Assembly (NCBI GenBank): GCA_019311105.1
Contig: JAFDDA010000042.1
Location: 1-64,000, forward strand
DNA: 64,000 bases
Source of the DNA: Deltaproteobacteria bacterium
GTDB lineage: Bacteria; Myxococcota_A; UBA9160; JAFDDA01
Direction of reading: 5' to 3'
Below the pieces are notes generated by a model, which did not search any database, was not told where the DNA came from, and saw only the letters and a program-made list of their open reading frames with translations. The first letter of the stretch is position 1, and each line of letters opens with the position of its first letter. A program made the position numbers and the translations under genes. This document shows, piece by piece, positions 23,402 through 63,292 of the stretch.

Positions 23402-25018
23402 CTAGAGTTCAGCGAGTTGGCGCTTCAAGACCTTGCCCGTGGGATTCCGGGGCAACTCGTCGAGGAAGACGATTTCGCGCGGCACCTTGTAGCGGGCCAG
23501 GTTGCTCTTCACGTGGGCCTGGAGGGCCGCCTGGTCGGCGCTGGCACCGTCCTTGAGGACGACGAAGGCCTTCAGCCGCTGCCCGAACTCGGGGTCGGGC
23601 ACGCCGATCACCGAGGCCTCCACCACGTCCCCGTGGTCGGAGAGCAGATCTTCGACCTCGCGCGGGAAGACGTTCTCGCCGCCCGAGATGATCATGTCGT
23701 CGTCCCGGCCATCGACGAACAGCAGGCCTTCCTCGTCGAAGTGGCCCACGTCGCCGCTCGACATCAGGCCGTCGATGATCTCCTTGTTGCCACCGCCGGT
23801 ATAGCCATCGAACTGGTTCTCGTTGGCGACGAAGATCCGGCCCGTCTGGCCCTGGGGCAGCTCCTTGCCGTCTTCGCCGAGGATCCGCACCGTCGTGCCG
23901 CGCGGCGGGCGCCCCGCCGTCCCTGGGGCCGCGCGCAGCTCGTCCGGCTGCGCGATGGTGGCCTGGGCCACCTCGGTCGAACCGTAGAAGTTGTAGATGT
24001 TGTCGCCGAACGTATCCATCCAGCGTAGGGCCAGCTCGCCGGGCAGCGCAGAGCCACTGGCGCACACCAGCTCGAGGGAGGACGTGTCGTAGCGGGCGAC
24101 GATCGTGGGGTCGAGGTCGAGGATCCGCTGCATCATCACCGGCACCACGGCCAACACCTCGGGCCGGTAGCGCTGGATGGCTTCGAGGGTGCGCTCGGGG
24201 TCGAAGCGCCGCTGCATGCAGACCGTCGAGCCGAGCTGCGCCGCGATCAGCAGATGGAACCCGCCCCACGAGTGGAAGGCGGGCGCCGCGATCAGGGTGC
24301 GCGTCCCGGTCCGCAGGGGCATGCGCCCGAAGAGGCCGACGAAGGTGTCGAGGCCCTGGCGCTTCAGCGTGCGCTGGGCGCCCTTGGGTGTGCCCGTGGT
24401 GCCGGAGGTCAGCACGGTGACCCGCCCTTGCTGCGAAGGCGCTTCGAGGTCTGCGCCGTCGTGCGCGGAGGCAAGCGCGTCGAAGGTCTTCTCTTCGGCC
24501 GGCGATTCGGCGAAGGTCAGGAATCGGGTCAGGTGCCCCGCACCTTCCTCGACCATCGGCCGGAACTCCTCGTCGTAGAGGATGACCTCCGTGCCCTCGC
24601 GCTTGCAGACCTCCTTCAACTGGGGCGCCGCGAATCCGGTGTTGAGCAACAGGGTGTTCGCGCCGAGCTTGTCGAGGGCGGCCTGGGCCTGCACGAAGCC
24701 GCGGTGGTTCCGCGCAAAGAGGCCGACCCCATCGCCCGCCTTCACGCCGGCAGAGGCCAGGGCGCGGGCGATGGCGTTGGTCGATCGGTCGAGCTCGCCG
24801 AAGGTCATCTCGCCCGCTTCGTCGATGAGGCCGATGCCCTCGGGGTTCCGCTGGGCCGCGGCATGGAAGCCCGTGGCCGAGGTCGACCCGAACTTCCCCA
24901 TGGCCGGGACCAGGCTCCGCAGGAAGCTCGGGCTCAGGAAGCCCGCAGCGCCCATGACCTGCGCGGCCTCGATCGCCCGTGAAATCGCACCACCCTGCCC
25001 GGTTCCTCGATGACTCAT
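23402..25018 (-). CDS. AMP-forming long-chain acyl-CoA synthetase (FadD-like)
   Basis: 538 residues with the adenylate-forming signature VTVLTSGTTGTPKGAQRTL, the YGSTEVAQ motif, the TGD-equivalent SSGDVGHFDEEGLLFVDGRD and the C-terminal catalytic lysine in NPTGKVLKRQL. It activates a fatty or related acid to its CoA thioester using ATP. The gene diverges from a dienoyl-CoA isomerase-like gene, with a 24-bp palindrome between them, so both are probably controlled together by a lipid-responsive regulator. Chain-length preference is not evident. Confidence 0.9.
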   Translation of the reverse strand: MSHRGTGQGGAISRAIEAAQVMGAAGFLSPSFLRSLVPAMGKFGSTSATGFHAAAQRNPEGIGLIDEAGEMTFGELDRSTNAIARALASAGVKAGDGVGLFARNHRGFVQAQAALDKLGANTLLLNTGFAAPQLKEVCKREGTEVILYDEEFRPMVEEGAGHLTRFLTFAESPAEEKTFDALASAHDGADLEAPSQQGRVTVLTSGTTGTPKGAQRTLKRQGLDTFVGLFGRMPLRTGTRTLIAAPAFHSWGGFHLLIAAQLGSTVCMQRRFDPERTLEAIQRYRPEVLAVVPVMMQRILDLDPTIVARYDTSSLELVCASGSALPGELALRWMDTFGDNIYNFYGSTEVAQATIAQPDELRAAPGTAGRPPRGTTVRILGEDGKELPQGQTGRIFVANENQFDGYTGGGNKEIIDGLMSSGDVGHFDEEGLLFVDGRDDDMIISGGENVFPREVEDLLSDHGDVVEASVIGVPDPEFGQRLKAFVVLKDGASADQAALQAHVKSNLARYKVPREIVFLDELPRNPTGKVLKRQLAEL

Positions 25019-25030
25019 GGCCCCTTTGTA

Positions 25031-25054
25031 CTAGAGCCGGCTAGCCGGGTCTAG
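25031..25054. promoter_or_regulatory. 24-bp near-perfect palindrome, likely operator between divergent lipid genes
   Basis: The outer arms are CTAGA and TCTAG and the centre is the perfect 12-bp palindrome CCGGCTAGCCGG (25037-25048); 11 of 12 base pairs match, the only mismatch being one flanking G/G pair. It sits 12 bp from the acyl-CoA synthetase start (minus) and 43 bp from the crotonase start (plus). CTAG-containing edges also give a TAGCGT (-10-like) box reading right. Size and position fit a TetR-family operator. Confidence 0.6.
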
Positions 25055-25097
25055 CGTGGCCGTGCAACAATCGAATCCCATCCAAGGAGAACGTGCC

Positions 25098-26349: not shown

Positions 26350-26379
26350 TTGATCGGGCGGGCATCGGCTCAGTAGAGT
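26350..26379 (+). promoter_or_regulatory. Candidate promoter upstream of the MAPEG gene
   Basis: TTGATC (26350-26355) and TAGAGT (26374-26379) are separated by 18 nt and lie 43 nt before the ATG at 26423. The rest of the 26199-26422 gap contains a short GC hairpin (26309-26326) and no gene. Confidence 0.4.
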
Positions 26380-26422
26380 GCGTCCCATACGGCGGGCCGC
26401 CCAGCGCGCCACAGGAGAACCC

Positions 26423-26830
26423 ATGAGCCCCACACTCTCTGCCTTGGTGGCCTTCTCGGTCTGGACCGGCTTGCTCGTCTTCGGCCTCGCCAACCTGCGC
26501 ATCTTCATCGCTCGATCGCAGGGCAAGGAGCTGAACACGTTCCGCCCCGACGGGACGGACCTCGAGGGCCTCGGCAATCGCTGGACGCGCGCGCACCTGA
26601 ACTGCCTCGAGTTCCTGCCGATCTTTGGTGTCGTGGCGCTCTCGGCGGTGGCGTCGGGTAACGCGGCCGTCACCGATGGCCTGGCCTGGCTCGTCTTCTA
26701 CCTGCGCCTCGGCCAATCGGTGGCGCACATGGCTTCGACGTCGATGCCCTTCGTCCTGATTCGCGCAATGCTCTTCGTGGGCCAGCTCTTGATCGTGCTG
26801 AACTGGGCGCGCCAGCTCCTCATGAGCTGA
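26423..26830 (+). CDS. MAPEG-family membrane protein
   Basis: 135 residues from the ATG at 26423 with RBS ACAGGAGAACCC. Four predicted membrane helices; the first loop contains NRWTRAHLNCLEFLPIFG, the pattern of the MAPEG family (membrane-associated eicosanoid and glutathione metabolism), where the Arg and Asn bind glutathione and membrane lipid. Bacterial members are often glutathione transferases or peroxidases of lipid peroxides. A glutathione peroxidase is encoded elsewhere in the window. Activity is inferred from family only. Confidence 0.85.
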   Translation: MSPTLSALVAFSVWTGLLVFGLANLRIFIARSQGKELNTFRPDGTDLEGLGNRWTRAHLNCLEFLPIFGVVALSAVASGNAAVTDGLAWLVFYLRLGQSVAHMASTSMPFVLIRAMLFVGQLLIVLNWARQLLMS

Positions 26831-59648: not shown

Positions 59649-61025
59649 ATGCCGGTTCCCATCGCCCAGATGTACACGGTCGTTTCCTACCTGCTTCGCC
59701 AGCGCCTCGGCGGCGCTTCGCGCTACCCGCTGGTTCTCATGCTCGAGCCGCTCTACCGCTGCAACCTGGCCTGCGCGGGCTGCGGAAAGATCCAGTACCC
59801 CTCCAACATCCTGAAGCATCAGCTGAGCGTCGAGGAGTGCATGGCCGCCGTCGAAGAGTGCGGTGCACCCATCGTGAGCATCCCCGGCGGCGAGCCCCTG
59901 CTGCATCCCCAGATCGGGGAGATCGTCGCCGGCCTCGTCGAGCGAAAGAAGTACATCTACCTCTGCACGAACGCGCTCTTGCTGGAGGAGAAGCTCGACC
60001 TCTTCCAGCCGAGCCGCTACCTCAGCTTCAGCGTCCACATGGACGGCCTCGAAGACGAGCACGACCGCGCGGTCTGCCGCGAAGGCACGTACCAGAAGGC
60101 ACGCAGCGCGATCGAATCAGCGCTGAATCGCGGATTTCGCGTGACGACCAACTCGACCTTCTTCGACGGCGTTGACCCGGCACGGGTCCGGGACTTCTTC
60201 GACGAGATGATGAAGCTGGGTGTCGAGGGGATGATGCTCTCCCCAGGGTACAGCTATGACAAGGCTGCCAACCAGGACGGGTTCCTCGAGCGCAAGCGTA
60301 CCGAGAACTTGTTCCGTCAGCTGTTCCACGAGCCCCACAAGAGCTGGCGTTTCAACCAGTCGCCGCTGTTCCTCGAGTTTCTCGCCGGCGGGCGCAGCTT
60401 CGACTGCACACCTTGGGGGAACCCCACCTACAGCGTGTTTGGCTGGCTGAAGCCCTGCTACCTGCTCCAGGACGGCTACGAGGCCACCTTCGAGGGCCTG
60501 CTGCAGAACACCGAGTGGAGCCGTTACGGACCGAAGAGTGGCAACCCCGCGTGCCAGAACTGCATGGTGCACTGCGGCTTCGAGCCCACCGCTGTCGAGC
60601 AGGGCTTCTCCTCACTCGGAGGGTTCTGGGAGATGGCGCGAGCGGCGATCGTCAGCCCGCGGATCCCCGCGCCGGAGGCCGAATGGGCGAGCGTCGAAGC
60701 CCCCGAAGCTGCGGCGACGGCACAGCCCCCGAGCCAGGGCTGGTCCTCCGAAGCGAGCATCGAGGCGCTGCGCGAAGCTTTCGACTACCGGGGGAACGTG
60801 ACCTTCCACTTCGAGGACGGGAGCGAGATCGAGGGCTTCGTCGCCAACCTCGGCGAAAAGGAGCTTACGATTTGGCCAGCGGGTGAGGTGACGCCGAAGC
60901 AGATGCCCTTGCAGGGGATCGTTCGGCTGACGTTCACGGGCAAGGACCCCGCGTCGGGCAAGAGTTGGCAGACGTGGCTCAAGAAGCAGGAAGCGGTGCA
61001 GCCGCTCGTTCGAGGGAGCGCATAG
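59649..61025 (+). CDS. hpnH: HpnH, radical SAM adenosyl-hopene transferase, with an extra C-terminal domain
   Basis: 458 residues. Radical SAM cluster CNLACAGC (Cys38, 42, 45), then SIPGGEPLLHPQIGEIVAGL and the C-terminal iron-sulfur-type cysteines in NPACQNCMVHCGFEP. It joins 5'-deoxyadenosine to diploptene, the first side-chain step of bacteriohopanepolyols. Usual HpnH proteins end after that cysteine region; here about 100 more residues follow: a Pro/Ala linker and a small beta-barrel-like domain (YRGNVTFHFEDGSEIEGF, MPLQGIVRLTFTGKD, SGKSWQTWLKK). The function of this domain is unknown. Confidence 0.93.
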   Translation: MPVPIAQMYTVVSYLLRQRLGGASRYPLVLMLEPLYRCNLACAGCGKIQYPSNILKHQLSVEECMAAVEECGAPIVSIPGGEPLLHPQIGEIVAGLVERKKYIYLCTNALLLEEKLDLFQPSRYLSFSVHMDGLEDEHDRAVCREGTYQKARSAIESALNRGFRVTTNSTFFDGVDPARVRDFFDEMMKLGVEGMMLSPGYSYDKAANQDGFLERKRTENLFRQLFHEPHKSWRFNQSPLFLEFLAGGRSFDCTPWGNPTYSVFGWLKPCYLLQDGYEATFEGLLQNTEWSRYGPKSGNPACQNCMVHCGFEPTAVEQGFSSLGGFWEMARAAIVSPRIPAPEAEWASVEAPEAAATAQPPSQGWSSEASIEALREAFDYRGNVTFHFEDGSEIEGFVANLGEKELTIWPAGEVTPKQMPLQGIVRLTFTGKDPASGKSWQTWLKKQEAVQPLVRGSA

Positions 61026-61037
61026 ACCTCGGCGAGG

Positions 61038-61175
61038 TTAGTGCCCGCTGCGCTCGAACTCCACGTAGGTTGCATTGGGAAAGGTCTCGGGAAGCCCCTT
61101 CCACAGGACGTGCGGCACCGAGAAGTCGTAGGTCCCTTGGGCCAGGAAGTCCGGGCAGGGGATCTTCGGGAACAC
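61038..61175 (-). pseudogene. Relic of an alpha/beta hydrolase C-terminus
   Basis: The minus frame ending at TAA (61040-61038) reads VFPKIPCPDFLAQGTYDFSV, then PHVLWKGLPETFPNATYV and EFERSGH: the acid (D) and base (H) region of a proline-iminopeptidase-like alpha/beta hydrolase. The nucleophile half is missing and the frame stops directly after GH, about 30 residues early. No start codon supports expression. The remainder of the 61026-61446 gap holds nothing recognisable. Confidence 0.6.
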
Positions 61176-61446
61176 CCGGGGCGATACCGACCGGCGCCCG
61201 GGGTGCGGCGCATGGCAGCGCCCAGCCCGTACGGGGCAACCGATGAAACCAAGGACGTCGGGGGACCGCGCGACGGAGTTGGTTTGGCAAAGGATCCTGG
61301 GAGCCGGACCCTGCCCTCGATCGGTGCCTCTCGAGGCGCTCGTTGCGCCTCACTCCTCTCTGCCGCCCTGAGCCTCCTGGCCGGCCCGCCCGCCCACGCC
61401 CGCGGCTCTCTGCGTTCTCGGACCGTTCGGGCGAAATGCATTCTGA

Positions 61447-61486
61447 CGGAACAAAGGTTCTATTTTTGTCCGATTGTTTGTATACT
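61447..61486 (+). promoter_or_regulatory. Operator-like inverted repeat and leaderless promoter of the TetR gene
   Basis: CGGAACAAA (61447-61455) and TTTTGTCCG (61464-61472) form an imperfect inverted repeat. TATACT (61481-61486) is a near-consensus -10 ending 7 nt before the ATG at 61494, which has no Shine-Dalgarno sequence. A regulator bound to the repeat would block polymerase, fitting autoregulation by the TetR protein encoded here. Confidence 0.6.
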
Positions 61487-61493
61487 CTTCGCT

Positions 61494-62159
61494 ATGTCCG
61501 ACCCGGGCTCGACACCCCGCCGACCCAAGCACCCGGGAAGGCCTCGTGGATCCCGCGCCGCCACCCGTCGGAAGACCGAGGAGCGCATCCTGGACGGCGC
61601 GATGCTCGCGCTCTCCCGGCACGGGATCGCGAAGCTGGGGATGGGCGACGTCAGCGCGTGCGCGGGGGTCTCCCGGGGGACGACCTACCGCTATTTCCCC
61701 AACCGCGACGACCTGCTCGTGAGGCTGGCGCGCCGCGAGGCCGAGCGCTTCGGCCAGCAGGTGTGGAAAGTCCTCGAGAGCACCCCCGAGGGCGAGGAAC
61801 GTCTGCGCATCGTGCTCGACTTCGCCGTCCGCCTGGGGCGCGACCATCCCCTGATCCAACGCCTGCCCGAGTCGGACCCGGGCTTCGTGCTGACATCGCT
61901 CCGCGAGCGCTTCCCCGACCTTCAGGCCACCTTCGAGCGCCTGTTCGCACCGGACCTGAAGAACACTCTGCTCGTGCGTTCCGGCGTCGTCACGGCAGAG
62001 CAGCTCGTCGGGTGGATCACCCGGGTACTGGTCTCGATCTTCCTCTTCCCCTACCCGGACCCTGAAGAGATGGCGGCGAACATGAAGGCCATCTACCCGA
62101 TCCTGGCCGTCGAGCCGGCAGGCCGAAGCCGGAAGGCGAAGGCGAGGACACGAACGTGA
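61494..62159 (+). CDS. TetR-family transcriptional regulator
   Basis: 221 residues. A basic N-terminal tail (PKHPGRPRGSRAATRRKTEE) is followed by the TetR helix-turn-helix: RILDGAMLALSRHGIAKLGM, VSRGTTYRYFPNRDDLL. The C-terminal ligand domain is variable and its inducer is unknown. The stop overlaps the amidohydrolase start (GTGA), so the regulator probably controls that gene and itself through the inverted repeat upstream. Confidence 0.9.
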   Translation: MSDPGSTPRRPKHPGRPRGSRAATRRKTEERILDGAMLALSRHGIAKLGMGDVSACAGVSRGTTYRYFPNRDDLLVRLARREAERFGQQVWKVLESTPEGEERLRIVLDFAVRLGRDHPLIQRLPESDPGFVLTSLRERFPDLQATFERLFAPDLKNTLLVRSGVVTAEQLVGWITRVLVSIFLFPYPDPEEMAANMKAIYPILAVEPAGRSRKAKARTRT

Positions 62160-63292
62160 ACTACCCGTTGATCTCGACCGACGACCACGCCTGGGAGCGG
62201 CGCGATACCTGGACCTCGAGGGTGCCGGCGCGCTTCCGAGACGAGTGCCCGCAGGTGCGCACCGAGGACGAAGTCGACTATTGGGTGTATGCGGGTACCC
62301 GGATCCGGGCGCTCGGCACGGGCTGCGCCGCCATGCGCCCCGAACGCGATGCCGTGAAGCGCTGGGAAGAGGTTCCCGAAGCGGCCTACGACCCCGCCGC
62401 CCGGCTCGCGACCATGGATGCCGACGGCGTCGGCGTGGAGGTGCTCTTTCCCCAGGCCGCAGGCTTCGGCGGTGGGCCCTTCGTCTCCACCGTGGGCGAT
62501 GCGAAGCTGCGCCTGGCGTGCATCCAGGCCTACAACGACTGGCTGGCCGAGGAGTGGTCGGACTTCAGCCCGCGCTACGTGGCCCAGGCCCTTGCGCCGA
62601 TCTGGGACGTCGATCTGGCGGTGACCGAGATCCGCCGAGCCCATGGCCTGGGACACAAGGCATTGGTCTGGACTTCGGCTCCGGAGAGCTGGGGGTTCCC
62701 GCACTTCAACGAGAGCTACTGGGACCCGCTGTGGGCAACCCTGCAAGAGCTCGCCATGCCGGTGGCCCTTCACATCGGCGGGCGTTCGAGTCTGCCCGAT
62801 CCCTGGGAGGGCTTTTCGAACATGCGCAAGCTCTCTGCGATCTCGACCACGGCGATCACCAGCAACGTCCAGGTGATGGCGAACGTGATCTTCTCCGGCG
62901 TGCTCGAACGCTTTCCCGACCTGAAGTTCATCTCGGTGGAGAGCGGCCTCGGCTGGGTCCCCTATCTGCTGGAGACGGCCGACCATCAGTACGAGCGGCA
63001 GCGTCTCTGGAACGAGGGCATGAGCCTCCGCCCCAGCGAGTACTTCCACCGCAACTGCTACGTGAACTTCTGGTACGAGGCGACCGGCCTCGCGCTCCGG
63101 GACCAGATCGGCGTCGACAACATCATGTGGGAGGCGGACTTCCCCCATCCCACGTCCACCTACCCCGACTCGAAGAAGCTCGTCGAGCGCTGCCTCGAGG
63201 GCATCCCCGACGACGAGTGCGAGAAGATGCTCCACGGCAATGCCTTGCGCCTCTACGGCCTCGACGGAGCGGCCATCGAGGCGGCTCTGTAG
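62156..63292 (+). CDS. Amidohydrolase-family TIM-barrel metal-dependent hydrolase
   Basis: 378 residues, GTG start coupled to the TetR gene. Metal-site regions: LISTDDHAWERRDTWTSRVP at the N-terminus, central PVALHIGGRSSLPD and C-terminal MWEADFPHPTSTYPDS. This is the amidohydrolase-2 type, paralogous in layout to the protein encoded at 44450-45640. Hydrolysis or decarboxylation of a lipid- or aromatic-derived compound is likely; the regulator coupled to it suggests substrate-induced expression. Confidence 0.87.
   Translation: MNYPLISTDDHAWERRDTWTSRVPARFRDECPQVRTEDEVDYWVYAGTRIRALGTGCAAMRPERDAVKRWEEVPEAAYDPAARLATMDADGVGVEVLFPQAAGFGGGPFVSTVGDAKLRLACIQAYNDWLAEEWSDFSPRYVAQALAPIWDVDLAVTEIRRAHGLGHKALVWTSAPESWGFPHFNESYWDPLWATLQELAMPVALHIGGRSSLPDPWEGFSNMRKLSAISTTAITSNVQVMANVIFSGVLERFPDLKFISVESGLGWVPYLLETADHQYERQRLWNEGMSLRPSEYFHRNCYVNFWYEATGLALRDQIGVDNIMWEADFPHPTSTYPDSKKLVERCLEGIPDDECEKMLHGNALRLYGLDGAAIEAAL

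Follow-up and report, generated by a model that had tools for sequence, protein, structure and literature searches.

The question raised by this locus is whether a palindrome lying between two divergent lipid genes is an operator, from which one repressor could control both, or whether its sequence stands there for another reason. In the 64,000-nucleotide stretch of DNA analysed here (the window), the genes acs and ech diverge from a gap of 79 bp (25019 to 25097) that contains the 24-bp sequence CTAGAGCCGGCTAGCCGGGTCTAG (Table 1). The near-perfect palindrome reported for this gap in the first-pass annotation was verified in its coordinates and in its 11 matched pairs out of 12; the one mismatch is a G-G at pair 6/19. 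Three CTAG stand in it at a 10-bp register, in a genome that is poor in CTAG. The palindrome consists of the acs -35 hexamer, the 17-bp spacer and one extra base, and both of these promoter elements are covered by it. It had also been described as overlapping the candidate -10 elements for both directions. This is correct for ech, whose candidate -10 TAGCGT shares the last 3 bases of the palindrome, and incorrect for acs, where the -35 and the spacer are covered and the -10 TACAAA is abutted and lies outside.

Table 1. Features of the acs/ech locus, in coordinates of the window.
Feature	Position	Strand	Remarks
acs, acyl-CoA synthetase, 538 aa	23402..25018	-	Pfam AMP-binding, 8.3e-61; NCBIfam FadD2-like, under curated cut-off
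acs start codon ATG	25016..25018	-	Transcription predicted to start at its A, 25018 (putatively leaderless)
acs -10 hexamer TACAAA, 12 nt before ATG	25025..25030	-	TA[ACT] at -12/-13 in 13/16 acs
acs promoter spacer, 17 bp, rest of palindrome	25031..25047	-	Spacer sequence not conserved
acs -35 hexamer TAGACC, palindrome right arm	25048..25053	-	TNGAC[CT]-N17-TA in 8/16 acs
Palindrome CTAGAGCCGGCTAGCCGGGTCTAG	25031..25054	.	11/12 pairs; single genome copy
Candidate ech -10 TAGCGT	25052..25057	+	Putative; no good -35
ech Shine-Dalgarno site AAGGAG, 8 nt before ATG	25084..25089	+	Such a site in 47/62 orthologues
ech, crotonase-family, probable delta3,5-delta2,4-dienoyl-CoA isomerase, 287 aa	25098..25961	+	NF004794; 1DCI

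The profile and structure matches of the two products mean that the names given to the genes earlier, acyl-CoA synthetase and dienoyl-CoA isomerase, hold. For acs, the AMP-binding match is accompanied by closest NCBIfam models of the FadD2/FadD12 type, with scores beneath the curated cut-offs. The product of ech exceeds the cut-off of NF004794 (crotonase/enoyl-CoA hydratase family; 326 versus 308 bits), and among solved structures it is closest to dienoyl-CoA isomerases (1DCI, E 1.3e-68). The alignment to these isomerases covers the stretches GGCIGGGVDL, EV and ADVG, which presumably carry the catalytic acids. A gene for a MAPEG-family membrane protein is found downstream of ech, at 26378 to 26830. 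Towards the end of the window, a radical-SAM/DUF3463 gene (59649 to 61025), with a domain pair that we take to recall the hopanoid enzyme HpnH, is followed downstream by the gene of a TetR-type regulator (61602 to 62159) and an adjacent Amidohydro_2 gene, all within 59649 to 63292.

The divergent acs/ech pair was absent among the loci around relatives of either gene, over flanks of 1.5 to 4 kb of which some are cut by contig ends. The nearest arrangement is that of locus L047, where a crotonase-family gene (30% identity) is divergent to an acs gene (72% identical) at a distance of ~460 bp, and where no 24-mer upstream of acs has more than 9/12 pairs. At two further loci (L071 and L092), ech is preceded on its own strand by a distant synthetase gene (26 to 30% identity).

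On the minus strand, the region upstream of acs reads TAGACC (25053 to 25048), 17 bp (25047 to 25031), TACAAA (25030 to 25025), GGGGCC and ATG. The region's highest-scoring sigma-70-like pair is TAGACC-17-TACAAA, with 8 of 12 positions matched; a strict promoter scan, set at 9/12 matches with T at the last -10 position, returned nothing in the region. The upstream sequences of the window's gene and of 15 orthologues with 72 to 79% identity (n = 16) were aligned on the ATG, which is aligned together with query residue 1 in all 16 genes. These promoter counts omit 7 of the 23 acs matches (L048 to L054; 53 to 58% identity), whose N terminus is unaligned from residue 1. It was observed that TA[ACT] is present 12 to 13 nt before the ATG in 13 of the 16 genes, compared with a mean of 0.6 and a maximum of 4 in 500 shuffles. 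The longer pattern TNGAC[CT]-17 bp-TA is found in eight genes, belonging to families f1, f4, f5 and f10 (shuffle mean 0.002, maximum 1). When the register was shifted by at least 3, no more than 1 match of TA[ACT] and none of TNGAC[CT]-N17-TA remained. Three acs genes (L034, L045 and L047) are without TA[ACT] at -12/-13, and 8/16 are without a -35 match. Among the 15 orthologues, the promoter geometry is retained more fully in some than in others, and the symmetry is not retained; judged from these alignments, it is the geometry that is conserved across the order, and not the two-fold symmetry. Within the source genome, TMGACY-17-TAY-9-ATG occurs at 3 places, one of which is acs, so this form of -35 is no frequent class.

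The position of the -10 is indicative of the way in which acs is expressed. In the available text of Zheng et al. 2011 (PMC3160421), leaderless bacterial genes are characterized by a TANNNT hexamer ~12 bp before the start codon, and the acs -10 is found at this distance. Moreover, no Shine-Dalgarno site (GGAG, GAGG or AGGA at -13 to -4) is present in any of the 16 acs genes; the window's gene has a weak AAAGGGG before the ATG, which could serve as a ribosome site. Because the -35/-10 geometry is conserved and the Shine-Dalgarno site is missing from all 16 genes, TAGACC-17-TACAAA-6-ATG most likely drives leaderless transcription of acs, a reading that draws on hexamer position and conservation. 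RNA polymerase would recognize TAGACC/TACAAA on the minus strand, putatively in the manner of sigma-70. Since the -10 ends 6 nt before the ATG, transcription would be expected at the ATG itself, and the transcript would begin at or beside its A, giving a leaderless mRNA.

For ech, a Shine-Dalgarno site within the same limits is found in 47 of 62 orthologues, versus 0/16 for acs. The set of 62 omits six loci, three being the window itself and three duplicates or near-duplicates, together with genes that have less than 50% identity, an alignment that does not begin at residue 1 or an upstream sequence that is too short. These comparisons suggest that ech is leadered in some relatives and leaderless in others. 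In the source genome, it is probably made as a leadered mRNA with a Shine-Dalgarno site from a promoter of its own, perhaps with TAGCGT as the -10. This hexamer also stands 12 to 13 nt before two other gene starts in the genome, and AACAAT (25066 to 25071) is another candidate for the ech -10. TANNNT is present 12 to 13 nt before the ATG in 2/62 ech orthologues (L057, to which L004 is near-identical, and L060); that of L057 is TAGCGT, preceded by TAGACG.

Leaderless starts were also counted in a 304-kb sample of the genome, consisting of the window and loci L155 to L166, with 258 crude gene starts. Of these starts, 11 have TANNNT at -12 and 9 have it at -13, on a background of 0.87 per position (-16 to -75). 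This excess (20/258) points to many leaderless genes in the source genome. The 20 starts do not share a TTG or a GAC at any fixed distance, and acs is outside them because the crude gene finder set its start at 24955 and not at 25018. A further TANNNT peak is seen at -15 (7 of 258 gene starts). In the same sample, the density of CTAG is 1.26 per kb in intergenic DNA versus 0.43 per kb overall, an approximately threefold enrichment, to which -10 hexamers often reading cTAGnnT perhaps contribute.

The palindrome is unusual for its place and unsurprising somewhere in a 64-kb window. A second-order Markov model predicts 0.85 24-mers with at least 11/12 pairs in the window, where 1 is observed, and a probability of ~0.0004 for such a palindrome in one 79-bp region. 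Across 149 intergenic regions (gaps of 24 to 800 bp between called genes, 22.7 kb in all, from 304 kb of genome), ~0.28 such 24-mers are expected and one is seen, which is the acs/ech palindrome. Scaling from this count gives ~0.065 for the 5.2 kb of intergenic DNA in the window. All 46 kb outside called genes hold 4 intergenic palindromes at exactly 11/12, of which the restriction to gaps of 24 to 800 bp keeps just that of acs/ech. Divergent regions carry 4 palindromes with at least 10/12 pairs, versus 0.75 expected, the acs/ech palindrome being counted among the 4.

The proposal of a shared repressor in the first-pass annotation had been linked to further copies near lipid genes and to conservation in relatives, and neither was borne out. 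The palindrome had no exact match in the genome_contigs collection, and with up to 3 mismatches allowed it still occurs just once in the 4.76-Mb genome. At the same tolerance, the palindrome was found in none of 96 other genomes, of which 78 belong to the same order, 11 to the class and 7 to the phylum, with none from the same genus or family. Looser forms were compared with reversed controls, which are rough in that their dinucleotides are altered (CTAG reads GATC): the core gave 24+21 genome matches versus 36+37, the outer arms (CTAGA-14-TCTAG, at most 1 mismatch) 10 places versus 256, with the acs/ech site as the sole exact one, and the arms with an open centre 35 matches versus 80. No regulon is supported by any of these searches. 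Upstream of the acs orthologues, the palindrome is present in 0/15, and the best 24-mers within 80 bp reach 5 to 9 of 12 pairs versus 11/12 in the window. The two-fold symmetry is private to the source genome among the genomes compared, and a conserved repressor site is presumably absent.

The shared-repressor model is mechanically sound, as acs, and perhaps ech too, would be shut off by a dimer bound there. The site occupies the acs promoter from the -35 up to the -10 and reaches the candidate ech -10 TAGCGT, a position that fits an operator from which a dimeric regulator (e.g., of the TetR type, sensing acyl-CoA) represses both genes. The low probability of such symmetry in a given 79-bp gap leaves room for function, and the surplus of palindromes in divergent regions, to which this one contributes, is consistent with it, as are the 74 TetR_N matches in the genome. 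This part of the proposal stands; what does not accompany it is a regulon, conservation or a neighboring regulator gene. The palindrome has a single copy, with looser forms rarer than in the reversed control, it is missing from the relatives and from the orthologous acs promoters, and the divergent pair of genes is not conserved. The TetR gene that was expected to be associated with the site is not adjacent: in a scan for TetR_N alone, the sole match of the window and of the contig lies 36 kb away, at ~61.6 kb. The regulon and conservation tests, all negative, leave the model unsupported, and repression of acs and ech from an operator at this position appears doubtful. A narrower form, in which a private operator was made from the leaderless -35 and its spacer and one dimeric regulator switches acs and ech together in this lineage from a site that differs from the operators known for fatty-acid regulation, is still somewhat less probable and we consider it unlikely.

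The same counts bear on the possibility that the symmetry is due to chance, with the spacer of a GC-rich promoter happening to mirror its TAGACC. For the window as a whole, the number of such 24-mers is about that expected, the right arm is the -35 and is present for another reason, and the lack of conservation in relatives and orthologous promoters is in line with a coincidence. The small number expected in the window's intergenic DNA argues against it, as does the 10-bp register of the three CTAG in a genome where CTAG is scarce. On this evidence, we favor chance as a fairly probable origin of the symmetry, which is more likely an extension of the -35 arm by chance than a private operator. 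The palindrome is self-complementary and might also act as RNA, in a terminator, an attenuator or a structured leader. It is located upstream of both predicted transcription starts, and a terminator scan and an Rfam search gave no match, so a terminator or an Rfam RNA was rejected and a role as RNA is very improbable.

This locus illustrates how core promoter sequence can make up half of a striking palindrome and how the comparison of orthologues tells a conserved promoter from a private symmetry. It provides a conserved case, from an uncultured bacterial order, of a gene for fatty-acid activation whose expression is probably leaderless. Should the palindrome prove to be an operator, the site would be a first handle on fatty-acid regulation in that order.

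TetR-family fatty-acid regulators, such as PsrA and the FadR of Thermus and Bacillus, repress lipid genes from a palindrome. We know of no operator of these regulators that the acs/ech palindrome matches and, unlike those systems, the site has neither an adjacent regulator gene nor a second site. The operator of Escherichia coli FadR is given in the accessible part of a review (PMC9329746) as the 17-bp palindrome aaCTGGTCnGACC(T/A)Gtt. The acs/ech site is like it in being a palindrome at fatty-acid genes and unlike it in sequence and length, and inspection by eye found no site of the FadR type, as given there, in the 79-bp gap. No published account of the acs/ech site was found in the literature searched on leaderless genes, UBA9160 and fatty-acid regulators.

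Leaderless promoters are an already known kind. According to the available text of the respective papers, leaderless genes were detected in 8/33 delta-Proteobacteria genomes, where they make up 15.8% of genes on average (PMC3160421), and leaderless genes of the TANNNT type are found in Deinococcus-Thermus (PMC12340547). The acs gene is like those described in PMC3160421 in having a -10-like hexamer 12 nt before the ATG and no Shine-Dalgarno site. Unlike that class, as far as it is described there, acs has a hexamer without the final T of TANNNT, the last base of TACAAA being A, in a motif that is a consensus and no strict requirement. It differs further in that half of the orthologues retain, 17 bp from the -10, a -35 of the form TNGAC[CT], and in that this -35 and its spacer form, in the source genome alone, a palindrome.
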